A stretch of 64,000 nucleotides of DNA from Verrucomicrobiota bacterium. GTDB taxonomy: Bacteria; Verrucomicrobiota; Verrucomicrobiia; Limisphaerales; J093. The first letter of the stretch is position 1; the number at the start of each line of letters is the position of its first letter. This document shows positions 34,175 to 46,023 of this stretch, piece after piece. The position numbers and the translations under genes are program-made. The notes under the pieces are model-generated. The model was not told the origin of the DNA. It ran no database searches and saw nothing but the letters and a program-made list of their open reading frames with translations. The stretch is taken from the NCBI GenBank assembly GCA_022710935.1, contig JAKLFY010000006.1:62001-126000 (forward strand). Direction: 5' to 3'.

Positions 34175-34335
34175 GCGGCCTTGATACCGCCCGGCGGGGC
34201 GACTGGCGAGCGGAAAACCACGGTCTTTTCATTTGGAGCGGTGCTTGAGGAGTGCTTGGAAAGGGATACGGGGGTCGTGCTGGCAGCGCTCCTGCGGGGC
34301 CGGCCAAGAAGGCTCGGGGTGAAGGTCCGCCTTGA

Positions 34336-34339
34336 GCGA
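34336..34339. repeat. Target-site duplication, left copy (GCGA)
   Basis: GCGA directly before the left end of the insertion and again at 42525-42528 directly after the right end. Counting one more base, AGCGA is shared on both sides, so the duplication may be 5 bp if the terminal A of the right end belongs to the target. A 4-5 bp duplication is normal for Mu/Tn7/IS21-type insertion. Confidence 0.6.
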
Positions 34340-34386
34340 TGTAAGTTCGCCGCCCACTTGTGAATGTTCGCCGCCCACTTGTGAAA
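34340..34386 (+). repeat. Left transposon end with tandem 21-bp repeats
   Basis: After TGTAA come two adjacent copies of GTTCGCCGCCCACTTGTGAA plus one base (34345-34365 and 34366-34386), identical except for the last base. Such repeats at an element tip, starting TGT, are the usual transposase-binding sites of Mu, Tn7 and IS21 relatives. The first copy aligns with the right end; the right end does not repeat it clearly. Confidence 0.7.
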
Positions 34387-34450
34387 GTCGAGAGGAAACA
34401 CAAATCGCGCGCCCTTCCAACAGGGGGCGTGCAACGATAAGCGAAACTGA

Positions 34451-34470
34451 TTCAGCGCGCTTGCGCTGAA
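34451..34470 (-). terminator. Hairpin after the transposition operon
   Basis: A perfect 8-bp stem (TTCAGCGC / GCGCTGAA, loop of 4) lies 11 nt past the stop of the ATPase gene. Read on the minus strand it is followed by a mixed T-rich stretch (TCAGTTTCGCTT), not a clean T run, so it is only a probable terminator of the minus-strand operon. Confidence 0.45.
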
Positions 34471-34481
34471 ACCGTCCCGCG

Positions 34482-35894
34482 CTATGTCTCGACTGTCACC
34501 AAAGCCCGCTCCGAGACCAGTCTTGAACCGTCCGCGGGCAGGTTTTGACGCCGGAAATCTTGCCGTGCCGGGGCCGTCGGCGGAGGCGCCGCCGGGGTCC
34601 GGCGAGACTGCGGCAGGACAGCCGCGGCGCGCTTGCCGCGCGCCCGCTCGATGGCCCCAGCGAAGGCCAATTCCTGCCCATTGCGCCGGGCGATGATCTC
34701 CCGGAAATCGGATTCGGTTGGCGCCTGGCGCCCCATAGCCAGGGCGAAATCCGCGGCGCCGGATGAAACGGATTCAATCCATGCCAAAGGAATCGGGGCA
34801 TGGCCCGCCAACGCGCACACGGCCCGGCGCGCCTTGCGATCGAGCGCCGGCATGCGAACGTCCACCAGGGCCGCAATGTCGGCCTCGGCCAAAGCGTCAG
34901 GAAGCTCGATCTTTTGCTGAAGGCGCCCGTCAAGCTGTTCAACCCGCCAACCGCCAGCCGCGGTTCTCTCCCGCCCGGCAAACCAGTCCCGGAGCGTCAG
35001 GAAAACGACGGGCACGCCCGCGTTGATCAACTCCATGATGAACAGCACACGATGGGGGCAGGCACCCCGAGAAGGCCAAAGCCGGCTCGCCTCATCCAAG
35101 ACCAGCATGACGCCGGGCATCCCCGGCAACGCCGCCTTGACCGCCTCGCGCATTGCCGCAGTCCGATCATCCAAGTGAACCGGGATTCCCAAGGCGCGCC
35201 CCACCGCAACCAGAAAGCCCTTCTCATCCTGATAGCTCGGGCACTCGACCAGCCGCGCCAAACCGGGGTGTCTTGCCACCCAATTGGCCGCAGAGAAGCT
35301 TTTCCCGATCCGATGCTTGCCCCACACCAAGGCCGACGTATGCGTCCGCGCACAGGCCGCCATGCACTCGCAAATGGCCGTTGCGACACTGGTCCCGGCC
35401 AATTCCGATTCAACCTGTGCCGCACGCTTCGCCATTGCGTCCCGCACCAGGTCAAACAGCGCGGGGGACCAGGCCGGCCCGGAAAGCTTGCTGGCCCCAG
35501 CAACCGACCGTTCATCATGCGAATACTCGTCCGGGCTGCCCGGATACGTGGCCCCGATCCCATCGGAGCCATTGGCCGCGGCCCACAGGAAACGCGGCAG
35601 GTCGAGATAAACGCTCGCCGGTACGCCGCCGGGCGTCTCCGGCTTCAGCCTTGGGCTGACAGGCATGCAAATGTCCTCAAACTCGACACGCCCCCGACCG
35701 GCACGCTCGCCGAACTCGTCAGGACTGGCGGCAATCAGTTTGTCGGCCAGCCCCGCCAGACCGCCGGGCTGCCAAGACTGCCATTGAAGGAACCGGACAA
35801 TATTCCGGTCTGACGCTGACAACAGACGCCCGCAACGGCGCGCCGTGTGGACGGCGGAGACTGGTTCGACAAAAGGACGGAATGGCGCTTTCAT
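34482..35894 (-). CDS. MuB/TniB-like AAA+ ATPase (transposition target selector)
   Basis: A 470-residue protein. Residues 1-165 are a long N-terminal part I cannot place. The ATPase core has Walker A GKHRIGKS (192-199, in SALVWGKHRIGKSFSAANW), Walker B VMLVLDEAS (262-270) and a sensor-like VVFLTLRDWF. The C-terminal 60 residues are a basic Pro/Ala-rich tail, as expected of a DNA-binding end. In Mu, Tn7 and Tn5053 relatives this protein picks target DNA and activates the transposase. It is the last gene of the operon, joined to the minor head gene by an ATGA overlap. The N-terminal extension makes it longer than MuB (about 310). Confidence 0.78.
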   Translation of the reverse strand: MKAPFRPFVEPVSAVHTARRCGRLLSASDRNIVRFLQWQSWQPGGLAGLADKLIAASPDEFGERAGRGRVEFEDICMPVSPRLKPETPGGVPASVYLDLPRFLWAAANGSDGIGATYPGSPDEYSHDERSVAGASKLSGPAWSPALFDLVRDAMAKRAAQVESELAGTSVATAICECMAACARTHTSALVWGKHRIGKSFSAANWVARHPGLARLVECPSYQDEKGFLVAVGRALGIPVHLDDRTAAMREAVKAALPGMPGVMLVLDEASRLWPSRGACPHRVLFIMELINAGVPVVFLTLRDWFAGRERTAAGGWRVEQLDGRLQQKIELPDALAEADIAALVDVRMPALDRKARRAVCALAGHAPIPLAWIESVSSGAADFALAMGRQAPTESDFREIIARRNGQELAFAGAIERARGKRAAAVLPQSRRTPAAPPPTAPARQDFRRQNLPADGSRLVSERALVTVET

Positions 35895-36730
35895 TTTGAG
35901 CGGCTTTCTTTCCAGCGGATTGCACCGTTGCTGTCGATCTCTACCTTGTCTCCGAGCGCGTCCACCAGGCGCTTCAGAAGATCGGAGGCTAACTTTCCAA
36001 CGCTCGATTCGAGACGGGCGTTGAAACTCGTCTCGACGTCCTGCACTTTCTCGCCCGGATCAATCAGCCCAAGCCTCTCCGCCTCGTCTCGATCGACGTC
36101 CTCCACGTCATGCCCACACCCCCAGCCCCAAGGCCCCCAAGGGACACCAAAGTCTTCGTTAAGCGCTGTCCAGAATCCAACATCGGACTTCAGACGAACC
36201 TCGCCCTCATGGATGCGATGCTCGCCGCGGGGCTCCTTGACCCCGCGCACGCGGACGAAGCGCTGGGCGGGGAATTCGTCCAAGACAGCCGGGTTGTTTC
36301 CCTGCTTCCAGTTGCCGTAATCATGCGCCTGGCGCGTCTGAACATCGAAAATCAAGTCCAGCCGGCGCTGGCTTCGGATGTCTTTGATCGTGCCGGCGTC
36401 CTCAGGGTCAAGCGGCCCCATCCCCTCCGAAATCGCAAACTCCCGCATTTGCTCGACGAACCTGGCCCGCCCCCAGGTCTTAAGGGCTGTCGTCTTGGTT
36501 CCATCGGGCGCCGTGATCTCCTCGCGCGCCGATTCAAGGAAGTCCATAAGCGCGTTCTTCGCCCGATCGAGAAACCGAACCGATTCGATTCTCGACGAGA
36601 AGAAAGCACGCTCGCGCAACGCAACCGGAACGTAAGCCCATTCAGCGCTGGTCAAATCCGCGCCAACAATCGACCGGACCCCCAGCTTCACCAGGGCCTC
36701 AGCAAACGGCAAAGGGCGAACGAACTTCAT
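35891..36730 (-). CDS. Phage minor head protein, Mu F / SPP1 gp7-like
   Basis: A 279-residue protein. Residues 25-70 are helical (AEWAYVPVALRERAFFSSRI), and residues about 112-215 carry the head-morphogenesis pattern: LIFDVQTRQAHDYGNW (126-141), FPAQRFVRVRG, PRGEHRIHEGEVRL (167-180) and the closing WGPWGWGCGHDVEDV (198-212), equivalent to the R-x-x-H...PPNGWGCRC block of Mu F and SPP1 gp7. These proteins sit inside the capsid near the portal and can enter the host with DNA. It lies exactly between transposase and ATPase genes with 4-nt overlaps on both sides, so it is translated with them. The usual final Cys pair is reduced to one Cys followed by Gly-His. Confidence 0.72.
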   Translation of the reverse strand: MKFVRPLPFAEALVKLGVRSIVGADLTSAEWAYVPVALRERAFFSSRIESVRFLDRAKNALMDFLESAREEITAPDGTKTTALKTWGRARFVEQMREFAISEGMGPLDPEDAGTIKDIRSQRRLDLIFDVQTRQAHDYGNWKQGNNPAVLDEFPAQRFVRVRGVKEPRGEHRIHEGEVRLKSDVGFWTALNEDFGVPWGPWGWGCGHDVEDVDRDEAERLGLIDPGEKVQDVETSFNARLESSVGKLASDLLKRLVDALGDKVEIDSNGAIRWKESRSK

Positions 36731-38760
36731 TGCTTGGCCTCCAACCAGGCGCGCGCTTGCGCCAACTCGTCAACGTCAGTGTCCGCCAGCCGCCGGCCAG
36801 TGTCCGGCAGGCCGATCTCGCGCAGCACACGGCGCCCGCGGTCCCGAGCACGGCCAGCCTCGACGGCGGCCTCTCGATTCGCTCGGATTCTGTCCCCAAG
36901 CTCGGCGGCGCGGACCGATTCCCAACTCGGCGCCACGGGCCGCAACTTCGGCAGATACTCAGCGCGCAAGCTCGAATAAAGCCCCTTGGCATAGGAATTC
37001 TGAGAAGCAACGCTGCGGGCGGCGCCCTCGATCTCATCAGGGCTCGCGTTGTATGAAACGCTTGGCGCCAGAGGAACGCACACAGGATTCCCGCGATTCA
37101 GATCCGTCAGGCACGCGAACTCAGGGCATTCAGGGTCAAACCACAGGATCACAGGACGGCCCACAAGGGCCGCGGTCTGAGCGTCCCGATAAACGAACCT
37201 ACGGTTGCCGAATTGAACCGCGGCGCCGTTCCCCGTCACCGTGACCTGCCGGCGATGATGGGCGAGCAAATAGCGCAGTCTTGGCGGGAACCCGATCGGC
37301 GGATCGCTTTGATTCTGAAACCTGGCCCATGCGTCATCCGGCGAAATCGTCTCGCCCGGCCAGGCTTTGCTCTGCATTGGCTCGGCGTTGTACGCTTCGC
37401 AAATCGAACCCAACTCGGAGAACCATTGCCGCATGCTGAACAGACCGGATTCGGCGGGATGCCGGCGCCCAGCCCGGACAGACGCAATTACCGCATTTTC
37501 GCGCTCGAATTTGTCGGTCATTTCCGCCCGCCCGACATAGCCTGGGTGAGCCTCCATGCGGTTCTGAGCCAGACCGATAATCCGCTCGATCACCTTGCCC
37601 CGCGGGGTGTGGGTGTGGCGAAACTCGACGAACTCGCGCAGCCCAAGCTCGATCTCTTCATCCTCGCAAGCGGCAGGATCGCCCTTCAGCAACTTTGACT
37701 TGCGCCAAATCCCGTTCTCAAGAAGCAGCCCTTTGCGCGGCAGCCCGTAGCGGGAAAAGACCTTGTTGAACAGCGTCCGAATTGCGAAAGCAGAATAACC
37801 CTCCGTTGGCAAGAGACAGAAATCGAGAATCCGGCGCGATCTCTCGTCATTCATCAGCAACGCTTGGCCGCGGCGCAGCACCGGCTTGCCCTTCTCATCG
37901 AGCACGGGGTTGCCGTCCCCATCATCCAACCAGAACACAACCGGCAGCGTGACGTCATCCGCGCTGAACCAGTCGCCCGCCGCAATGCCCAACCAATCCC
38001 GGTCAATCCATGCCCCGCGCAGCCCGCCGGTCCGCGGCCCGCGATGCCACGAGGCCAGGGCTTTTGCCACAGGCCCGATCTCGCGCCGGACGGTTGCCGG
38101 GACGTAGCTCTTTCGGGACGGATTCGACACGAAGCGCCCTTTCGTCGGTTCACTCAGCAAGTCCGATTGCAGCCCGTTCCGCCAGGCCTCAGACACCCGC
38201 CCGCCATGCTTCAGCGTTGCCAGGGCAACCAGGGCGCGGTGGTCACGCTCCGGCAAGGCAACCGAACGCGCCCGATTGGCATCCGCGCGGCGATCGAGAA
38301 AAGCCGACGGTTTTCGGTCCCCATGAATCCAGCGATCGAGTTTGCGGCACCAGGTCACATACAGCGCATGCCCGCGGGCCTCGATCCACGGGCAACTTCT
38401 TGCGACCCAATCGAGAAAGGCAGCCCGGCGCCCAAGAGCCTCCGCGCCTTCGATCGGCCCCGCCTCCCAAGCCTGAAACAAAGCATCCCAAAAAAGCGAT
38501 TCCTCCGCCGCCGTCGGGGCGGACCGATCGCCCATGCTGGCGACCAGATCAGCCAGGCCAGCCAACCCGTCGGCGATCGCCCCCCGGCGCAGCCAGGCCA
38601 GCCGCAAATCGTCGGGGAGTTGGTCAAGACCGTAAACCTTGGTTTGGCCGCCCCGGCTTGGCCGGAACGTCTGAGGCGGCACGCTTTTGAGCTTATGGCG
38701 AACCGTTCGCTCCGGCATGCCCAGCCCGGCGGCGAGTTCTTTGGAAGTCAGCAACGTCAT
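36727..38760 (-). CDS. MuA/TnsB-like DDE transposase
   Basis: A 677-residue transposase. The start at 38760 overlaps the HTH gene by 4 nt and gives MTLLTSKELAAGLGMPERTVRHKL, a MuA-type N-terminal DNA-binding domain. Helical binding domains fill residues 60-240. The RNase H-like core begins near 262: GDWFSADDVTLPVVFW (first acid Asp268/269), LLLENGIWRKS, where the expected second Asp (DNG) is Glu348, and GKVIERIIGLAQNRM with Glu392. A beta-barrel-like part follows (PPRLRYLLAHHRRQVTV) and the C-terminus is basic and helical, probably the part touching the ATPase. Length agrees with MuA (663). The Glu at the second acidic position is unusual. Confidence 0.85.
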   Translation of the reverse strand: MTLLTSKELAAGLGMPERTVRHKLKSVPPQTFRPSRGGQTKVYGLDQLPDDLRLAWLRRGAIADGLAGLADLVASMGDRSAPTAAEESLFWDALFQAWEAGPIEGAEALGRRAAFLDWVARSCPWIEARGHALYVTWCRKLDRWIHGDRKPSAFLDRRADANRARSVALPERDHRALVALATLKHGGRVSEAWRNGLQSDLLSEPTKGRFVSNPSRKSYVPATVRREIGPVAKALASWHRGPRTGGLRGAWIDRDWLGIAAGDWFSADDVTLPVVFWLDDGDGNPVLDEKGKPVLRRGQALLMNDERSRRILDFCLLPTEGYSAFAIRTLFNKVFSRYGLPRKGLLLENGIWRKSKLLKGDPAACEDEEIELGLREFVEFRHTHTPRGKVIERIIGLAQNRMEAHPGYVGRAEMTDKFERENAVIASVRAGRRHPAESGLFSMRQWFSELGSICEAYNAEPMQSKAWPGETISPDDAWARFQNQSDPPIGFPPRLRYLLAHHRRQVTVTGNGAAVQFGNRRFVYRDAQTAALVGRPVILWFDPECPEFACLTDLNRGNPVCVPLAPSVSYNASPDEIEGAARSVASQNSYAKGLYSSLRAEYLPKLRPVAPSWESVRAAELGDRIRANREAAVEAGRARDRGRRVLREIGLPDTGRRLADTDVDELAQARAWLEAKQ

Positions 38761-39026
38761 TGAGCGTTGTCCTTGCGCCGCCGGCCCGCCCGATTCCACC
38801 GGGGCACCAAACCGTTCAACCCGCCGGCCTCATACGCGCGCGCCCAACGCCAGGCCGTCGAATAGCTCGCCCCCGACAACAAGGAAAACCGGCGCCGATC
38901 GAGCCCCACTCGGCGCGCTTCGTCGAAAAACAGGACCAGATTCAAGCGGCGCCAGGCCTCGACCGCGTAGCGGCATCGGCCCGCGATATTCAGAATCCGA
39001 TCGGGAATAGACGGCGCGCTCGTCAT
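38757..39026 (-). CDS. Small HTH protein upstream of the transposase
   Basis: An 89-residue protein starting at the ATG 39026 (MTSAPSIPDRILNIAGRC). Residues 30-75 form a helix-turn-helix of the kind found at the N-terminus of IS transposases (RRFSLLSGASYSTAWRWARAYEAGGLNGLVPR). It probably helps recognise the element ends or controls the operon, like Mu Ner or a separate end-binding subunit. It overlaps the transposase start by 4 nt. The long hairpin at 39042-39076 lies just ahead of its start. Confidence 0.65.
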   Translation of the reverse strand: MTSAPSIPDRILNIAGRCRYAVEAWRRLNLVLFFDEARRVGLDRRRFSLLSGASYSTAWRWARAYEAGGLNGLVPRWNRAGRRRKDNAQ

Positions 39027-39041
39027 GACTTTATGGAAGGG

Positions 39042-39076
39042 GGCGCGGTCGGGAACCAGACCAGCCCGACCGCGCC
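39042..39076 (-). promoter_or_regulatory. Strong hairpin between the capsid and transposase gene groups
   Basis: A perfect 12-bp GC-rich stem (GGCGCGGTCGGG at 39042-39053 pairs with CCCGACCGCGCC at 39065-39076, loop of 11). On the minus strand it ends 16 nt before the HTH start codon and is followed by CCCCTTCCATAAAG, not a T run. It could slow read-through from the capsid gene, protect the 3' end of its mRNA, or gate translation of the transposition genes. Confidence 0.5.
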
Positions 39077-39241
39077 TTGAACGCTCCCCCCGCTTGCCGA
39101 CGGCCCCGCAGAGGGTCGGGACGCGCGCCGCCGGAAATTGAAGCCGCCCTCCGTGGATTAGCAGGCCTGGCGGCGGAGACCTTTTGACCATGCGCTCTCA
39201 CGGCGTACGCTTTACCATGCTGCACCCAAAAACACTCAGAC

Positions 39242-40309
39242 TCAGGCCGCGCTGACGAGCGTATGTCCGACGGCGGGGTTCCCGACGGCAACGCCAAAGA
39301 GCGTCGTCATGCGGCAGGTCAAGTTCCACCCCGAGTCAGCAAACACGTTGCGGACGAACGACAGACCCGTGCGCGGATCGGTCATGACTTCATACGTGGC
39401 ATGAATATCAAGGCCGCGCTCGCGCCCGGCGTGCCGGGGCACGCGACAGACGCAGACGAGCGAACTTCGGGCACCAAAGAACCCGATCAAGTTGATGTCG
39501 TTCGTCGGCAAACTCGGGACTTCCCAAATGTCGCGGAATCCGGCGCACGCGCTCCAATGCGCATAATCGGACACGTCCGGCTTGCGATCGTAGGAAAGCG
39601 TCATGATTTCGTCGGCGCATGCCGCGGTTGCGACGTCGGAACTAATCCAGCCGAACCGACCAGCCGGCGGGACGCCGGCGTCGGTCATGGCCTTGGCGAT
39701 GCCGCGCAACGTACTATGATCGAACGTTTCTGCGGCTTTGATCGTTTGCGTTGCGGCCGTGTCGCCGAAGGCGGTCTCGGTGATCAGGGCAGTAACCGCG
39801 GCAAAAATATCGTTCCCCAGAGCGATGGCCAGGGACTCGCCGCGCTCAAGGACCAGGTGGCGAGCCGAGCCGACAACCTCCGTCGGCGCGAATCGCACGC
39901 TCGCCTCCCGCCATTTGTCGAGGGTGACGGGGACGTCCACTTCAACGACGTCTGTCGGAGCCTCCCCGAAATCTTTGGCGGTCGGTTGGCTGGCGATGCG
40001 CGAAGTTATGAGGTCGCCCAAGTTACCCTCCTTGGGTGCGAAGTCCGTGGCGACCCCGGCAAGCATTTGAGCGCGCGCGCCGACATCCTCAAGCGCGATT
40101 TGCGACGCAAACTCGATGGACAAATTGCCCAACGTGTTGGAGGCCGAGACCGGAAAGCCCGAGAGGAAATCCTCGCCCGCTCGGATCCGAGCGCTCATTT
40201 GCTTGCGAAATAAAGCCGTGCGATCGGCGGGAGATTTGCTCGGCTTTGTGTACTCGGCGAGGATGGCCGTTGCCGGCTCCCGCTCGATTTGAAGTTTATT
40301 GAATTTCAT
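39242..40309 (-). CDS. Phage major capsid (coat) protein
   Basis: A 355-residue protein from the ATG at 40309 (MKFNKLQIEREPATAILAEY); an in-frame ATG at 40360 would overlap the upstream gene. It has the layout of HK97-fold coat proteins of the P22/Mu-like large group: a long N-terminal helix region, then GEAPTDVVEVDVPVTLDKW (E-loop/strand part), LRGIAKAMTDAGVPPAGRFG, SAYDYAHW-like region SDYAHWSACAGFRDIWEVPS, and the closing RTGLSFVRNVFADSGWN plus LFGVAVGNPAVG. A G/A-V-P-x-x-G-R-F block, a decoded 'I...P.LP.N' strand and a late T-G-L-S are common in coat proteins. No scaffold or protease gene adjoins it. It should assemble shells; with which portal is unknown. Confidence 0.72.
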   Translation of the reverse strand: MKFNKLQIEREPATAILAEYTKPSKSPADRTALFRKQMSARIRAGEDFLSGFPVSASNTLGNLSIEFASQIALEDVGARAQMLAGVATDFAPKEGNLGDLITSRIASQPTAKDFGEAPTDVVEVDVPVTLDKWREASVRFAPTEVVGSARHLVLERGESLAIALGNDIFAAVTALITETAFGDTAATQTIKAAETFDHSTLRGIAKAMTDAGVPPAGRFGWISSDVATAACADEIMTLSYDRKPDVSDYAHWSACAGFRDIWEVPSLPTNDINLIGFFGARSSLVCVCRVPRHAGRERGLDIHATYEVMTDPRTGLSFVRNVFADSGWNLTCRMTTLFGVAVGNPAVGHTLVSAA

Positions 40310-40332
40310 CGGTTTTTGTTCTGTAGACTCTT

Positions 40333-40521
40333 TCACTTGCGGCCCGTTTCGCGTGGCCATTTGACCCGCTTGTCCTCAGGGATGCCGCGCAGCGCCTGGC
40401 CCTCGCGCATGGCCGCGATGTTGCGCCGAATCACAGCGCTGGCGTCCCGGCTAGTTTCGCCGCGTTCGTGCGCGTGCCCGCGCTCAAAAGCCAGCCGAAC
40501 GTGATACGCGAGAGAGCTCAT
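40333..40521 (-). CDS. Small protein of unknown function (62 aa)
   Basis: ATG at 40521 overlaps the stop of the Cro-like gene by 4 nt, and the stop lies 23 nt before the capsid start, so it is part of the same transcript. The protein is basic and mostly helical (SSLAYHVRLAFERGHAHE, DASAVIRRNIAAMREGQ). I recognise no family. A scaffold-like or capsid-accessory role is possible only from its place. Confidence 0.5.
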   Translation of the reverse strand: MSSLAYHVRLAFERGHAHERGETSRDASAVIRRNIAAMREGQALRGIPEDKRVKWPRETGRK

Positions 40522-40760
40522 CGGGAGGCCCCCGTAACCGCACGCCCCGGAGCAACCGGGTCGCCGAACAACCGGCGACCGTGCAACCGGCGCATCCGCA
40601 AATCGAGAAAGCGGGCGAAGAGGCCCGGCGATTCACGCTCTCCGTCGATCACGGCGCGAAGATGCCCGGCGGAAACGCCAAGGGCCACCGCGTCTTCGCG
40701 AAGCGCGCCATACTTGCCACTCCCTAGCGGCCGGCCTCGACGTTCAAGTTTTGGACTCAT
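40518..40760 (-). CDS. Cro/Ner-like small HTH regulator
   Basis: An 80-residue protein from the ATG at 40760 (MSPKLERRGRPLGSGKYGAL; 40766 is an alternative). Residues 15-55 resemble a lambda-type helix-turn-helix (ALREDAVALGVSAGHLRAVI, then ESPGLFARFLDLR). It is transcribed away from the larger regulator at 40849, with the 6-4-6 palindrome at 40762-40777 at its very start. The pair looks like a phage lysogeny switch. It is the first gene of the minus-strand operon with the capsid gene. Confidence 0.6.
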   Translation of the reverse strand: MSPKLERRGRPLGSGKYGALREDAVALGVSAGHLRAVIDGERESPGLFARFLDLRMRRLHGRRLFGDPVAPGRAVTGASR

Positions 40761-40761
40761 A

Positions 40762-40777
40762 ACCATGTACGCATGGT
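40762..40777. promoter_or_regulatory. Operator palindrome between divergent regulators
   Basis: ACCATG-TACG-CATGGT is a perfect 6-4-6 palindrome in the 88-nt gap between the Cro-like gene (minus) and the CI-like gene (plus). On the minus strand TACCAT (40778-40773) with TTGCAC (40800-40795), 16 nt apart, is a reasonable promoter whose -10 element lies inside the palindrome, so binding here would block it. Transcription would then start about at the start codon, giving a nearly leaderless mRNA. Confidence 0.6.
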
Positions 40778-40848
40778 ACACACATTTTGTCTCCGTGCAA
40801 GAAAAAACAATCACAAGTTTGCGCGGGGCTGTATGATGTCGCTTCGAC

Positions 40849-41721
40849 GTGCCCCGAAAGAGACCGCTATCGAAACGGGAACTTGAGATTTGCGATCGTC
40901 TGCTCCTATGCAGACGCGCGCTAGGTATGACGCGCGCAGTCTTCGCCCATCGGGCCGGCATCGAGTATTCCCTGCTTGCTAACATCGAGCACGCTCGATC
41001 CCCGACACGATGGGGTGTGATCGAGAAGATCGCCAAAGCCCATCAAATCAGTCTCCGCTACCTGGCCGAAGGCAATGGCGCAATGTTCAGACCTTCGGCT
41101 TTTTGGCCTGTTTCTGAGGAATTCACCGCCGATCCGCAAGCATGCTTCAGCACGATATACGATCGGGACTTGCGCGTAATGATCGCCACAATGGACTTGG
41201 CTTTTGATCTCGTCGATAAGAGTGGAGGCAAGGCACCCCGGCCAGTTCCGTTGGCGGGAATGCCTCTCTGGGAGTTTGAGCTTATCACGGTCGAGAGCAA
41301 AGCGCGGCAACTCATGCGGAAGCTCTCAGACAAGGAGAACGTCGAGTTTTACAAGACACTTCACCGGACCATTGACAACTTCGCCAATGCCCTCAAATCC
41401 AGAGCCACAAGTCAAAAAGAGGACTTGACAGACGGTCTGAATTCACTCACAACAGGCCCCGTGCAACCCGTCTTGCCAAAGCTGATTGATCGAATCCGTG
41501 AGGCCACGAAAGAGCGGGGCGGCAAGGCCGCGCTGGCCGCATGGCTCGGGGTCCATCGGCATTGCGTGACGGATTGGCTGAAGGGCAAACAGAAGCCCAA
41601 CGGCGAGACAACGCTTCGCTTGCTTCAATGGGTCGAGGCGGAGGAGCGCAAACAACAAAGCCCCGGCGATGCTATGATTCACCGCCGAGGCGAAGACCCA
41701 ACGCAGAAAACCCCTCAATGA
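40849..41721 (+). CDS. CI-like repressor with two HTH regions
   Basis: A 290-residue protein from the GTG at 40849. The N-terminal XRE-type domain (residues about 15-75) has RRALGMTRAVFAHRAGIEYSLLANIEHAR. The middle is helical, without a recognisable LexA/S24 Ser-Lys peptidase. A second XRE-like HTH near the C-terminus reads GGKAALAAWLGVHRHCVTDWLKGKQKP (residues about 225-255). It is transcribed from the divergent control region and is probably the maintenance repressor. The codon use and base composition are a little more AT-rich than in the host genes nearby. The next gene overlaps its stop by 4 nt. Confidence 0.7.
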   Translation: MPRKRPLSKRELEICDRLLLCRRALGMTRAVFAHRAGIEYSLLANIEHARSPTRWGVIEKIAKAHQISLRYLAEGNGAMFRPSAFWPVSEEFTADPQACFSTIYDRDLRVMIATMDLAFDLVDKSGGKAPRPVPLAGMPLWEFELITVESKARQLMRKLSDKENVEFYKTLHRTIDNFANALKSRATSQKEDLTDGLNSLTTGPVQPVLPKLIDRIREATKERGGKAALAAWLGVHRHCVTDWLKGKQKPNGETTLRLLQWVEAEERKQQSPGDAMIHRRGEDPTQKTPQ

Positions 41722-42092
41722 ACACTCAACGTCAGGCCCGCCAACAGAATGCGTCAACACGCGCCGAAGTTCAAGACTCAAACGATGCCGCCCAAGCTCC
41801 GGCGGCGGAGTCATTCGACGGCTTGGACTTCGACCGCGAGAAAGGCCCCGATCCGGACGCGCTCGGATTCGAGCGCATCAGCAACGATCCTTTTGAAGGC
41901 GGCGATCGCCTGATGCGCGCCCCGAGCGGACGCCTCTACCTCTGGCCGGAAATGGAGGGGACGATCAGGGAAATCACATTCGAGCAGGCGGTCGAGTGGC
42001 TGCTGGTTACGTGGATTCCGAGCCCGTTCCGCGAGACCATCACCGACGCCTTGACGGTGAAGCGCGTCCGAAACTACCGCGGACTTGTCTGA
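41718..42092 (+). CDS. Unknown transposon-encoded protein (124 aa)
   Basis: ATG at 41718 overlaps the repressor stop (ATGA). The first 45 residues are Gln/Ala/Asp-rich and probably disordered. The rest is compact (GGDRLMRAPSGRLYLWPEMEG, TFEQAVEWLLVTWIPSPFRE). I do not recognise it. A terminator follows 33 nt after its stop, so it ends a two-gene maintenance operon. It could be an accessory of the repressor, an immunity factor or an anti-phage function, but nothing in the sequence shows which. Confidence 0.55.
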   Translation: MNTQRQARQQNASTRAEVQDSNDAAQAPAAESFDGLDFDREKGPDPDALGFERISNDPFEGGDRLMRAPSGRLYLWPEMEGTIREITFEQAVEWLLVTWIPSPFRETITDALTVKRVRNYRGLV

Positions 42093-42125
42093 TTGAGGAA
42101 TCGACCCGAGCGGCTTCGATTCACA

Positions 42126-42163
42126 CCCCCGGCTGGCCCAGCGCTGGCCGGGGGTTTCTGTTT
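42126..42163 (+). terminator. Rho-independent terminator of the repressor operon
   Basis: A GC-rich stem (CCCCCGG at 42126-42132 with CCGGGGG at 42148-42154; the interior CCAGCGCTGG folds further) followed by TTTCTGTTT (42155-42163). It lies 33 nt after the stop of the 124-residue gene. Confidence 0.8.
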
Positions 42164-42496
42164 GAGGCGCCGGCACTGGCCCCCGCCAGCCCCCGGCGGC
42201 CCGACAGCCGGCGGGGTGCGGCCAGACGGCGGACGCCTGGCCGGGCGATCATTAGCGAAACCTTTTTTTCGAGAGGGGGAAAACCCGTCGGCACCGGGAG
42301 GGGAAATATTTCCAATGCTCGGAAAACGGCTCCTTACGCGGCAAAGAGGGTGTGCGTTTGACCGCGGCAACGCGGCAAGAAATCGACGTAACCCGTTGGT
42401 AATCAAGAGAGGCTTGTGATTCCACGATTGCGGCAATGCCGAGGTCGTTTTTTGTGCATAAGCCATTGATGCACCGGGCATTGCACTGGATTTTCC
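42164..42496. other. Gene-free transposon arm with short repeats
   Basis: There is no supportable gene between the terminator and the right end. The stretch has a perfect 12-bp AT-rich palindrome (GGAAATATTTCC, 42302-42313) and three copies of CGCGGCAA at 42337, 42363 and 42371. These may be internal binding sites for the transposase or a host bending protein. The open frame on the minus strand here has no ribosome site and no protein-like character. Confidence 0.4.
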
Positions 42497-42524
42497 ACAA
42501 TCACAACTCGGATGAGAACAAACA
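42497..42524 (-). repeat. Right transposon end
   Basis: Read inward on the minus strand from 42524 it starts TGTTTGTTCTCATCCG and continues to TTGTGATTGT. Compared with the left end, 20 of 28 positions match, including TGT, GTTC and TTGTGA. It is followed on the outside by GCGA, the partner of 34336-34339. Confidence 0.65.
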
Positions 42525-42537
42525 GCGAATTCTTCAT

Positions 42538-42567
42538 TTGACAGATCCGGCGAGGCTGGTGTAAATA
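42538..42567 (+). promoter_or_regulatory. Promoter of the brnTA pair
   Basis: A perfect TTGACA (42538-42543) and TAAATA (42562-42567), 18 nt apart, in the 90 nt between the transposon end and brnT. The -35 starts only 14 nt beyond the transposon end, so the insertion spared the promoter. The operator palindrome begins right after the -10. Confidence 0.6.
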
Positions 42568-42583
42568 CATTGTAAACACAATG
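42568..42583. promoter_or_regulatory. Operator palindrome of the brnTA pair
   Basis: CATTGT-AAAC-ACAATG, a perfect 6-4-6 palindrome immediately after the -10 element and 31 nt before brnT. Ribbon-helix-helix antitoxins such as BrnA bind short palindromes at this place to repress their operon. Confidence 0.65.
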
Positions 42584-42614
42584 CATGGGCGATTGCTTTA
42601 CGTGAGACCGCTAA

Positions 42615-42899
42615 ATGGAGTTTGACTGGAACAACCCGCCCTTTGAATGCGACAGATCTTTGACGCTTCGGGATATTGAAGAATCGTTCGAGGACCCATT
42701 TGCCGTGAGATTGATGCCTGATTCACCCCGGTTTTCAGTACAGGCGCGGTTCTTTAACCTCGGCAGGTCGGCTTCCGGGACCGGAATCATGAGTCTGTAT
42801 CGGACAAACGGGCGTGTGGTCCGGGTCCTTTACGCCCGTCCGTTCACTGACGAGGAACAGTTCTTTTATCAGAGGAAAGTGAACCAGACATTGGCCTAG
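42615..42899 (+). CDS. brnT: BrnT-like ribonuclease toxin
   Basis: A 94-residue protein of the BrnT (RelE-fold) family. FDWNNPPFECDRSL... corresponds to the F-x-W-D-x-x-K opening, DIEESFEDPFAVRLMPDSP to the F-x-x-A-x-x-x-F-x-D-P block, and RFFNLGRSASGTGIMSLYR plus VRVLYARPFTDEEQFFYQ to the R-x-x-x-I-G...R-I-I-S-A-R end. The usual Lys-His at the start of the second helix is replaced here, so activity should be tested rather than assumed. As is usual for this family, the toxin gene comes before the antitoxin gene. Confidence 0.75.
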   Translation: MEFDWNNPPFECDRSLTLRDIEESFEDPFAVRLMPDSPRFSVQARFFNLGRSASGTGIMSLYRTNGRVVRVLYARPFTDEEQFFYQRKVNQTLA

Positions 42900-42921
42900 G
42901 AATTGCAGGCAGGACCGTCGA

Positions 42922-43230
42922 GTGGCTGGGTCTGGGCGAAGTTCGAATGCGCTTGTGAACACGATCAGCACTTGGGAAGAGGTGCCGCTGTTCGACAGCG
43001 AAGAGGCTGAGGCGGCATTTTGGGCCGACACGCGCGTCGATCTGCGCTTGATGGAAAGCGCCGTGGCATCGAGCGCGGACAGCGCCGAATCGGTCACGAT
43101 CACGCTGCGGATGGATCCGCGGATGCTGGGGCGGATCAAGCGGATGGCGCGGGAACGGTATTTGAACTATCAAAGCATGATCAAGCAGTGGTTGAGCGAG
43201 CGGATGGAGCGTGAACTGCGGGGGCGCTGA
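42922..43230 (+). CDS. brnA: BrnA-like ribbon-helix-helix antitoxin
   Basis: A 102-residue antitoxin from the GTG at 42922, 22 nt after brnT; a GTG at 42955 is an alternative. VPLFDSEEAEAAFWADT is the toxin-binding start of BrnA, and the C-terminal VTITLRMDPRMLGRIKRMA with LNYQSMIKQWLSERM is the ribbon-helix-helix. It neutralises the toxin and should repress the promoter upstream. Confidence 0.8.
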   Translation: MAGSGRSSNALVNTISTWEEVPLFDSEEAEAAFWADTRVDLRLMESAVASSADSAESVTITLRMDPRMLGRIKRMARERYLNYQSMIKQWLSERMERELRGR

Positions 43231-43258
43231 AGAGGCCCACCGCAACCAGGACAATGAA

Positions 43259-44002
43259 ATGAAGAGTCTGAATCGTCCAATCTTCCGGAAACCGGATGCG
43301 CCCGCGGCGGCGAGTGCCGCTCCCCGAAACGGGGCTGTGGCGTTTACCCTGATCGAGTTGCTGACGGTCATTTCCATCATCGGAGTGCTTGCCGCCATCG
43401 GGGCGGGCCTTGCGGGCGTGGCGAGTCGGAAGGCGAAGGAATCGACCATCCGGGCGCAGAAGGACCAACTGGGGGCGGCCATCGAGAGTTACCGGACCGA
43501 TTTCAACCAGTATCCCCCGGACAACTCGCTCAATGGCGTGAATGTCAATCCGGCGCTCAATCCGCTCTTCTACGAACTCACCGGAACCATCGCCTCGCAG
43601 CAAGGCATGTATTACCGCTCCGCCGACCGCGAACAGCGGTTGCCGTCGGCACAGCTCCAGCCGGCGCTTGGCGTGCAAGGGTTCGTGAATTCGACTGAAG
43701 CGCCGCAGCGTCCGAAGACCTTCCTCACGGGGCTCAAGGCCAATCAGCACCAGGAAATCCCGCTGACCTCATCCGCCGGCTCTCTGACAGTCGAAGTGCT
43801 GGTCATCCCCTATCCGTGGCCGAAGAAAGAGGCTGCGACCGCGCCCCTGGCAGGGCGGGTGAACACATCAGCGTCCGCGGACAAGCGGTTTGCGAATCCG
43901 TGGAGATACGTGTGTACCAAGCCGACGAACAACGTGGCGGCCTACGACCTGTGGGCCGAGGCATACATCGGCGGCAAACGCGTGACAATCGCCAACTGGT
44001 AA
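43259..44002 (+). CDS. Pseudopilin (prepilin-type cleavage domain), GspG-like
   Basis: A 247-residue protein. After a 28-residue basic leader comes FTLIELLTVISIIGVLAAI, the type IV prepilin helix, cut before Phe by a prepilin peptidase. The rest has the GspG-like layout: a long helix (AKESTIRAQKDQLGAAIESYRTD), NQYPPDNSLNG and a C-terminal globular part. ATG at 43259. It begins a run of pseudopilin genes on the plus strand; no ribosome-level coupling to brnA is seen (28-nt gap), so a new promoter is likely. Confidence 0.85.
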   Translation: MKSLNRPIFRKPDAPAAASAAPRNGAVAFTLIELLTVISIIGVLAAIGAGLAGVASRKAKESTIRAQKDQLGAAIESYRTDFNQYPPDNSLNGVNVNPALNPLFYELTGTIASQQGMYYRSADREQRLPSAQLQPALGVQGFVNSTEAPQRPKTFLTGLKANQHQEIPLTSSAGSLTVEVLVIPYPWPKKEAATAPLAGRVNTSASADKRFANPWRYVCTKPTNNVAAYDLWAEAYIGGKRVTIANW

Positions 44003-44210
44003 CCGCGACATGATGATCGGCCTCAACATCCCGCCGGCAGGCCGGCTGAAACTGACCATCCGATGGTCGGCGCCGTCCTGGCCGGTCCCGATTCGATGGA
44101 CGCGCCGCGATGGCCGCGGCCGCCGATCCGCGCCTCGATTGCCGGGCGCGCGCCCGACTGCCTTTGTTCTCCCTTGGAAGTCTTACTCAAGAAACCAGCC
44201 CTCTCCGATT

Positions 44211-45095
44211 ATGAAGAAGCACATGCTCCAAACCCGCTGGAACGACCTCGGGTTCACCCTGATCGAACTGCTGACGGTCATCGCGATCATTGGCGTTCTG
44301 GCTGCCATGATCACGCCCGCCGTCAGCAAGGCGAAGGAAAAGGCCCAGATCATGACCGCCAAAAAGGACCTCCAGGTGATCATTGGCGCGATCAATTCGT
44401 ACAATGCGACCTACGGACGCCTCCCCGCACCCAAGCCGGCCCAAAACTCGGTGAACGACAACTCCCCCGACTTCACGTTCGGCACCGTCGCCTCGAGCGG
44501 CGGGACCGCACTGGTCGATCGGCGGGGACAGGCGCTGCCGCTCCTTCAGAACCAATGGGCCAATTACCAGGGCAACAATTCCGATGTCATCGCCATTTTG
44601 CGGGATATTGACCGGTTTCGCGACGGGACCCTGCCGGCCAATTGGAACCCGGCGAAATCGAACCCGCCGCAGAGCATGAACCCGCAGAAGCAGGACTTCC
44701 TGGACGGTTTCAAAGACGTCGATTATCAGAAGGCGCCGGCAGGCGGCAACCAGGGGATCTCGAAGGGGGGCGGCATCGGTCCCGACGGCGTGCTGCGGGA
44801 TCCGTGGGGCAATCCCTTCATCATCACGCTCGATCTGAACTACGACAACAGTTGTCGGGATGCCCTCTACCGGACGGAAGCCGTGTCGCAAGACAAGTCC
44901 CAATCGGGCACGCCGGATCTCGGATACAACGGGCTGCGGCGCGTGCCCGCGGCCAGCGCGGGCGACAACACGCCACACCGGTTCGAGGCCAAGACCTCCG
45001 TGATGGTCTGGTCGTTCGGACCCGACGGCAAGATCAACAGCAACGCGGGCGCCAATCTGCTGCAGAACAAGGACAATGTCTGCAGTTGGAAGTAG
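44211..45095 (+). CDS. Pseudopilin, GspG-like
   Basis: A 294-residue protein from the ATG at 44211. The leader is 13 residues (KKHMLQTRWNDLG), then FTLIELLTVIAIIGVLAAM, and KAKEKAQIMTAKKDLQVIIG continues the helix. GRLPAPKP and a later DPWGNPFIITLDLNYDN are typical of GspG-type major pseudopilins, in which the DPWG loop binds calcium. The 208 nt before it encode nothing I can support. Confidence 0.88.
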   Translation: MKKHMLQTRWNDLGFTLIELLTVIAIIGVLAAMITPAVSKAKEKAQIMTAKKDLQVIIGAINSYNATYGRLPAPKPAQNSVNDNSPDFTFGTVASSGGTALVDRRGQALPLLQNQWANYQGNNSDVIAILRDIDRFRDGTLPANWNPAKSNPPQSMNPQKQDFLDGFKDVDYQKAPAGGNQGISKGGGIGPDGVLRDPWGNPFIITLDLNYDNSCRDALYRTEAVSQDKSQSGTPDLGYNGLRRVPAASAGDNTPHRFEAKTSVMVWSFGPDGKINSNAGANLLQNKDNVCSWK

Positions 45096-45105
45096 GAGGC
45101 TTGGC

Positions 45106-46023
45106 ATGATCGCCGGCACCATAACCAATACTCCGGTGAACCCGGTTCATTCACCCCGCCGGGCGTTGCGCCTCGGACGGGGCCAGCCTGGCCCGACCGC
45201 CCCGACCACCGAGCCTCGAACCGGCACGCCGCGCCGTCTGAGGACCGGGGCGTTCACGTTGATGGAGGTGCTGGTGGTCATCGGCATCATCGTGGTGCTG
45301 GCGGTCAGCAGCGTGCCCGCCATCCGCAGCCTCACCCAGGCCAACACACTCGCCTCCGGGAGCCGCCAGATTCTGGATGAACTGAACCTGGCGCGCCAGC
45401 AGGCCCTCAGCTCGAGGCGGACTGTTTACATGGTGTTCGTGCCGCCTACCGCGGGAAGCCACATCACCCAGTTGCAGGCGATGCCGGCGGGCCGGAGTCG
45501 CGATCAGGCCCTGCGGCAGTTCACCAACCTGGTCGCCGGCCAGTACCGCGCCTACGCCTTGTTCTCGAAGCGCACCGTGGGGGACCAACCCGGGCGTGAA
45601 ACACCCCGTTACCTGAGCGGAGGATGGAAACTGCTGCCGGACGGCATGTTTTTCGCGACCAACAAGTTCGTCGATCTCGGTTCCGCGTGGACCAACCAGC
45701 TCACGGTCGTCGTCACGAACCGTGTTCTGCCCTATGCCTGGTTCCCGTTCCCGACCGCCGAGAGCGAGGTCATGCGGATGCCTTACATCGCGTTCGATCC
45801 TTCGGGGCGATTGACATTCGAGGGCCAGGGCAGCCAGAAGATCCAGATGGACTCGGGCGTGACGCTCAGCCGCGGCAGTGTGTTCTACGCGAAAGACAAT
45901 CAGAACCACTACCTGCTCAACGCCGAGCCTGACGTTGTCACCACCCCGCCGGCAAACCGGACCGATGTTGTCGTGAACTGGATCACGGGCCGCCCGCGCA
46001 TCCTGGAGGCGAAAGTCGAATGA
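45106..46023 (+). CDS. Pseudopilin, Verru_Chthon cassette protein D-like (GspH type)
   Basis: A 305-residue protein with a good ribosome site (AGGAGG) before the ATG at 45106. The leader is long, about 48 residues, before FTLMEVLVVIGIIVVLAV. The helix ends SRQILDELNLARQQALSSRRTVYMVFV, as in GspH-like minor pseudopilins and cassette protein D. The gene order D, B, C, A from here to 51.7 kb is the Verru_Chthon cassette known from this phylum. The stop overlaps the next start by 4 nt. Confidence 0.78.
   Translation: MIAGTITNTPVNPVHSPRRALRLGRGQPGPTAPTTEPRTGTPRRLRTGAFTLMEVLVVIGIIVVLAVSSVPAIRSLTQANTLASGSRQILDELNLARQQALSSRRTVYMVFVPPTAGSHITQLQAMPAGRSRDQALRQFTNLVAGQYRAYALFSKRTVGDQPGRETPRYLSGGWKLLPDGMFFATNKFVDLGSAWTNQLTVVVTNRVLPYAWFPFPTAESEVMRMPYIAFDPSGRLTFEGQGSQKIQMDSGVTLSRGSVFYAKDNQNHYLLNAEPDVVTTPPANRTDVVVNWITGRPRILEAKVE

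Follow-up and report, generated by a model that had tools for sequence, protein, structure and literature searches.

A MuA/MuB transposon family of Verrucomicrobiota that carries exchangeable phage virion genes and may act as a helper-dependent satellite

A small transposon with capsid and minor head genes

We analysed a 64,000-nucleotide stretch of DNA from a Verrucomicrobiota bacterium (the window), in which positions 34340-42524 form a mobile element of 8,185 bp with paired TG...CA ends (Table 1). The left end carries TGTAAGTTCGCCGCCCACTTGTGAATGT at 34340, with a second tandem copy at 34361, and the right end carries TGTTTGTTCTCATCCGAGTTGTGATTGT on the minus strand, ending at 42524; both are bordered by the 4-bp target duplication GCGA. 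A first-pass annotation, made from the letters alone, had proposed these flanked ends, and the analysis confirmed them. The 28-base end pattern, which was derived from the element's own two ends, occurs with at most two mismatches at only three sites in the 64 kb (both ends and the left tandem copy) and at none in 100 shuffles. When flanks were ignored in the search, the best terminal pair for the locus was exactly the one at 34340/42524, and its flanks then proved identical over 4 bp.

Table 1. Features of the element in the window, with the evidence for each
Feature	Position	Strand	Evidence
Target duplication, left copy, GCGA	34336..34339	.	sequence; 4-bp duplications in 5 more members
Left end, two tandem 21-bp repeats resembling transposase sites	34340..34388	+	end-pattern search
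MuB/TniB-type AAA ATPase, 470 aa	34482..35894	-	PF13401 7e-8, PF05621 1e-5, phrog_296 3e-11; family alignment
MuF-domain minor head protein (F), 279 aa, N-terminal domain only	35891..36730	-	phrog_220 1e-8; alignment
MuA-type DDE transposase, 677 aa, intact	36727..38760	-	family profile, D/D/E motifs
Small HTH protein, 89 aa	38757..39026	-	PF13384 9e-5
Major capsid protein, 355 aa, no counterpart to the protease/scaffold half of phage relatives	39242..40309	-	phrog_283 2e-13; AlphaFold2; Foldseek
Small ORF o62, 62 aa, function unknown	40333..40521	-	4-nt overlap with next ORF
Small regulator-like ORF o81, 81 aa	40518..40763	-	similar ORFs in other members
CI-like repressor, 290 aa, divergent	40849..41721	+	PF13560 3e-8, phrog_4 1e-12; related protein in 24/28 loci
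ORF, 124 aa, function unknown	41718..42092	+	no family match
Right end, inverted relative of left-end repeat	42497..42524	-	end-pattern and flank-blind terminal-pair search
Target duplication, right copy, GCGA	42525..42528	.	sequence

Leftward transcription takes in, in order, o81, o62, the major capsid protein (MCP), the helix-turn-helix (HTH) protein, MuA, F and MuB, while the CI-like repressor and the 124-aa open reading frame (ORF) are read rightward. This gene arrangement suggests a repressor-controlled operon, and 4-nt overlaps join HTH to MuA, MuA to F, F to MuB and o81 to o62. Family matches and coordinates thus confirm the first-pass assignment of the overlaps and of the MuA-like, MuB/TniB-like, HTH and CI-like genes. 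A profile of the MuA family matches the MuA transpososome structure 4fcy (E 1e-10), with the D, D and E motifs at 262, 305 and 348. Pfam and PHROG family matches revealed no portal, terminase, tail or lysis gene in the element, in keeping with the earlier view that the first three are absent, and no integrase family appeared among the family matches of the nine ORFs, for which no search aimed at integrases was made. A promoter scan of the element returned matches no more often than chance.

The MCP is predicted to have the capsid fold. Its AlphaFold2 model, built from an alignment of 17 sequences (that of the window and 16 relatives), has a predicted local distance difference test (pLDDT) score of 77, up from 38 with a six-sequence alignment, and it matches the P22 procapsid, an HK97 fold, with a Z of 18.2 over 272 residues. 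Foldseek matched the model to phage capsids in the PDB (7.5e-13) and in BFVD (5e-23). Encapsulins are also among the fold matches of the model. The capsid and F/gp7-like identities assigned on first reading to these two genes hold, the latter also by 50-63% identity to the N-terminus of longer proteins in Mu-like phage contigs; a search of the MuF profile against the PDB by sequence gave no match of note.

Both proteins are shorter than their phage counterparts. The MCP corresponds to the C-terminal half only of phage protease-MCP fusions of 672-720 aa (for example, residues 369-692 of 692), and F corresponds to the first 279 residues of phage proteins that are mostly 484-1056 aa long, a 269-aa F ORF in contig L018 being the exception (here and below, G denotes a genome and L a locus or contig, with G000 for the window's own genome). 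Relatives of F occur in 13 IMG/VR loci, 11 of them at 51-63% identity. One Mu-like phage contig, G290, encodes MuA, a MuF protein, TerL-like and portal-like proteins and a 672-aa protease-MCP fusion, to which the window's proteins are related at 53% (F) and 30% (MCP) identity. Searches of phage records and IMG/VR with the window's MuA and MCP returned nothing usable, and a weak MuA match in L010 was rejected as a 24-residue chance match in an unrelated contig. In the Mu-like phage contigs L011-L021, the MuF gene lies away from the portal gene and mostly has variable C-terminal extensions (484-1056 aa in total), possibly MuF-linked effector domains.

A shared backbone with changing virion cargo

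The element belongs to a Verrucomicrobiota-wide family of mobile elements. Its MuA has relatives in 35 of the 293 genomes of the order that were searched, and a phylum-wide sample of 388 genomes, searched with a related MuA, added seven besides the window's own; a GTDB contig scan with alignment gave matches in Verrucomicrobiota only. A backbone of CI, cargo, MuA and MuB recurs in 28 loci (the window and 27 more), with MuA in all 28, MuB in 26, the remaining two contigs stopping short, and a CI-like gene in 24. In most loci a ...TACA-type end lies within 100-300 bp past MuB, and a few have small extra genes after it. The transposase tree, a quick, midpoint-rooted one with long branches present, splits 38 element rows from 17 Mu-like phage rows by a single branch with support of 100; across the broad MuA alignment the sequences varied too much for a pattern to be searched with.

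Exactly 4 identical bp flank the best terminal pair, found blind to the flanks, in six members: the window, G003, G130, G121, G280 and G240. Measured against mismatched left and right regions of different loci, the end match is rare for the window (0.8%) and for G130 and G003 (below 0.2%), and it stands at 0.2% for G280, 0.8% for G348 and 2.8% for G023, G121 and G459. Elements with ends found measure 8.2, 8.5, 11.7, 12.2, 12.8, 12.8, 13.1, 15.1 and 15.3 kb, the last of these (G003) holding an apparent IS66-type insert. A convincing end pair was not found for over half of the 28 loci, where the contig or the stretch retrieved may be too short, or the ends more divergent.

These results rule out a random prophage remnant, a reading that the first-pass annotation had found hard to square with the paired ends and intact frames: the ends are defined, the transposases form their own branch, the backbone is shared and some of the cargo appears to be under selection. 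A complete phage with ends farther out is likewise ruled out for the window and for the relatives with ends found, which span 8-15 kb with MuB near the end; in none did the same ends enclose portal, terminase and tail genes farther out. A search of other Verrucomicrobiota for the gene order and ends, which the first-pass annotation had recommended, found the backbone in 27 further loci and 4-bp duplications in five of them; the cargo is not one capsid module.

The cargo slot lies between the regulator and MuA; in some members it is found between MuA and MuB, or else past MuB. Virion genes, mostly one or a few per element and recognised by a PHROG match or clear identity to a protein with one, occupy 20 of the 28 loci, and two further loci, G348 and G459, carry such cargo by BLAST to phage genes. 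The types are not homologous across members and comprise three groups of MCP, two each of portal and protease, and also tape measures and MuF. MCPs of phrog_283/267 occur in the window, G003, G130, G068 and G108a; those of phrog_10 occur in G023, G147a, G111 and G149 and, fused to a protease, in G280; and G138 has a phrog_1005 MCP together with MuF and a head protein of phrog_673. Portals belong to phrog_12 (G111, G149) or phrog_113 (G240, G667 and, as a protease fusion, G411), and proteases to phrog_80 (G149) or phrog_328 (G147b, G141, L101, G133), while tape measures are found in G121, G240, G089 and G411, with a weak match in G068. The cargo of G111 was assigned by its 80-88% identity to that of G149. 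The large-terminase proteins of the phage contigs compared match no element protein at E 1e-4. Trimming recurs outside the window, in that the G240 portal corresponds to residues 33-422 of a 577-aa phage portal and the phrog_328 proteases to the N-terminal part of their phage counterparts. The o81 protein of the window resembles an N-terminal extension of the G003 MCP ORF.

Head genes can differ between elements with similar transposases, as in G280 and L101, whose MuA proteins are 76% identical, and the head-gene type changes at least seven times on the transposase tree. For the one close pair tested, G111 and G149, the ratio of nonsynonymous to synonymous substitution rates (dN/dS) is 0.19 for the portal, 0.20 for the protease, 0.23 for the MCP and 0.32 for MuA, which indicates purifying selection on these three virion genes; the window's MCP and F have no equally close pair. 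In the same pair (L058/L061), MuB is only 41% identical against 85% for MuA and 80-88% for portal, protease and MCP, so backbone genes too appear to be exchanged between close elements. Taken together, the cargo looks like a set of interchangeable virion parts used on another's particle.

Two further features of these loci may be recorded. A RadC/JAB-like gene (phrog_10276) is present in portal-carrying elements (L061:3322-3858 and L058:2886-3437), and L120, a related MuA/MuB locus in G305 where no virion gene was recognised, may be the bare backbone.

A possible satellite and its alternatives

We propose, with a probability of about 0.5, that this MuA/MuB transposon family works as a helper-dependent phage satellite, for which induction, assembly and transfer would be as follows. 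The CI-like protein would keep the leftward operon silent until infection or induction by a Mu-like phage, when the same operon would yield MCP, F, MuA and MuB, so that transposition or replication and virion parts would come together. The protease-less MCP would co-assemble with the helper's MCP, and the short F would take the place of the helper's F or compete with it, both entering the assembling heads and redirecting or spoiling them. The analogy is with Ccm of SaPIbov5, a satellite-borne capsid homologue: 23% identical to the capsid protein of its helper, it becomes part of small capsids and cannot do without that protein (PMC6893505). As a result the element's DNA could be packaged, or at least the helper held back; the element would not build a complete particle alone. 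Somewhat short of an even chance, in our estimate, is the more specific claim that this is an undescribed satellite class, in which MuA/MuB transposition stands in for the integrase. Its cargo slot would take up, time and again, one virion gene or another from resident phages, be it for MuF, capsid, portal, protease or tape measure and often only in part, so that the element could keep up as its helpers change.

Several observations weigh against a satellite. Helper and packaging are both putative, and in the element we recognised neither a signal for packaging nor a terminase redirector nor a lysis gene. The G290-type large terminase has no match in the host genome, so that a helper of that kind would need an outside source; a resident helper is not required. 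Trimming is common and not universal, the tape-measure-like proteins of G459 and G411 being about phage length and the head-region protein of G348 full length, and six of the 28 loci (G264, G080, G081, G663, G540 and G305) have no recognised virion gene. Finally, elements serving immunity only, or carrying virion genes as passive cargo, would look similar at this level. Homologues of virion parts are present and under apparent selection in one pair, and their action on helper assembly is putative.

The rather unlikely alternative of interference without packaging would have the virion parts act as dominant-negative subunits that wreck the assembly of competing phages, protecting host and element. 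Lone parts of many kinds, such as a protease, portal or tape measure by itself, make more sense for sabotage than for building a particle. The MCP and F of the window each match only part of a phage protein, and there are known cases, through Tai, of satellites and prophages that stop tails from assembling (PMC11364771). However, a regulator and a transposase in one operon-like block look like an inducible mobile element, and immunity by itself leaves transfer between distant hosts unexplained. Still less probable, we think, is a transposon that merely collects fragments of Mu-like prophages where it lands, the virion genes doing nothing for it. Such a history would account for content that differs between members, for the presence of source-type phages in the same order, for the six members lacking recognised virion genes and for the broken MCP frame of G003. 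It sits poorly with a cargo that consists mostly of virion genes and keeps to one slot between the regulator and MuA, with purifying selection that is no weaker on portal, protease and MCP than on MuA (in the one pair), and with the co-occurrence of MCP and transposase in members whose MuA proteins are only 37-38% identical.

That the element makes a complete capsid from its own MCP, as the first-pass annotation suggested, seems improbable, even though the MCP has the predicted full HK97 fold and capsid-forming phage-inducible chromosomal islands (cf-PICIs) do make their own heads (PMC10690885). The MCP is without the protease/scaffold half, no scaffold, protease, portal or terminase was recognised in the window's element, and most relatives either have no MCP or have different parts in its place (a protease, portal or tape measure by itself, or portal, protease and MCP together), no member having a recognisable large terminase. 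The other half of that suggestion, a satellite borrowing from a helper, is the reading that we retain. Although encapsulins are among the fold matches, it is very improbable that the HK97-fold protein forms a compartment unrelated to phages, as by sequence it is akin to phage capsid proteins that are fused to a Mu-type protease, a MuF gene accompanies it, and portals and tape measures occur in relatives.

With Mu and Mu-like phages the family shares a MuA-type DDE transposase, a MuB-type ATPase, a repressor switch, the MuF minor head domain and TG...CA ends. However, those phages are about 35 kb long against 8-15 kb for the elements, which place MuB near the element end and virion genes mostly between regulator and MuA, are without terminase, sheath, baseplate and lysis set, and have transposases on a separate branch. 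Transposons of the Tn7/Tn5053 type likewise pair a DDE transposase with a TniB/MuB-kind ATPase, but the passengers here are phage virion genes, control is phage-like and the duplication is 4 bp, whereas that of Tn7/Tn5053-type elements is 5 bp. SaPIbov5-type satellites are also small, repressor-controlled elements with a lone diverged capsid homologue (PMC6893505). The SaPIs (Staphylococcus aureus pathogenicity islands) share an integration and replication module, whereas the window's element moves by a MuA/MuB transposase. Like cf-PICIs, the element places virion head genes on something smaller than a phage, but cf-PICIs encode all of the head and packaging genes, both terminases included (PMC10690885), and the element has a partial set with no recognisable large terminase. 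Mobile elements that block virion assembly are known from Tai-type interference too; Tai proteins act on a component of the tail and are not presented as virion-part homologues (PMC11364771), whereas the cargo here is itself homologous to virion parts.

Most known satellites rely on integrases together with either dedicated redirecting proteins or a full head module, and those named in a recent review are not described as MuA/MuB-based (PMC11389934). In agreement with the first-pass annotation, which knew of no capsid-forming satellite built on MuA/MuB, we found no MuA-type satellites, nor satellites in Verrucomicrobia, in the open-access literature searched. A MuA/MuB element with virion genes thus looks undescribed there, a provisional judgement of novelty. 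If the satellite reading is right, interchangeable and sometimes partial virion parts on a transposon would add to the known means of parasitising or blocking phages, in a phylum for which the papers searched seem to describe no satellites. They raise a testable question: can a mobile element gain control over a phage by way of one virion piece borrowed from it?

Flanks of the element

No clean empty site could be demonstrated in the sister species G012, which has no matches to the MCP or MuA. There, the homologue of the right flank (42528-46000) is 93.6% identical, on G012:C197, with homology beginning at the last base of the right duplication, and the left-flank homologue lies on a separate contig, G012:C39. 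Because the flank homologues are on two contigs, the junction evidently came with a rearrangement or with insertion into a repeat.

The sequence at 34219-34338 is the first 120 bp of a non-coding dispersed repeat of about 188 bp that ends at the element's left end; more than 30 copies, some incomplete, are present in G012, whereas the window's genome has only this copy and one 60-bp piece. Directly adjoining the element on the other side (42615-43230) is a gene pair that, judged by eye, resembles a BrnT/BrnA toxin-antitoxin module. It is followed at 43211-46023 by a series of type II secretion/pilin-like genes with N-terminal methylation motifs, which have many paralogues in related genomes.

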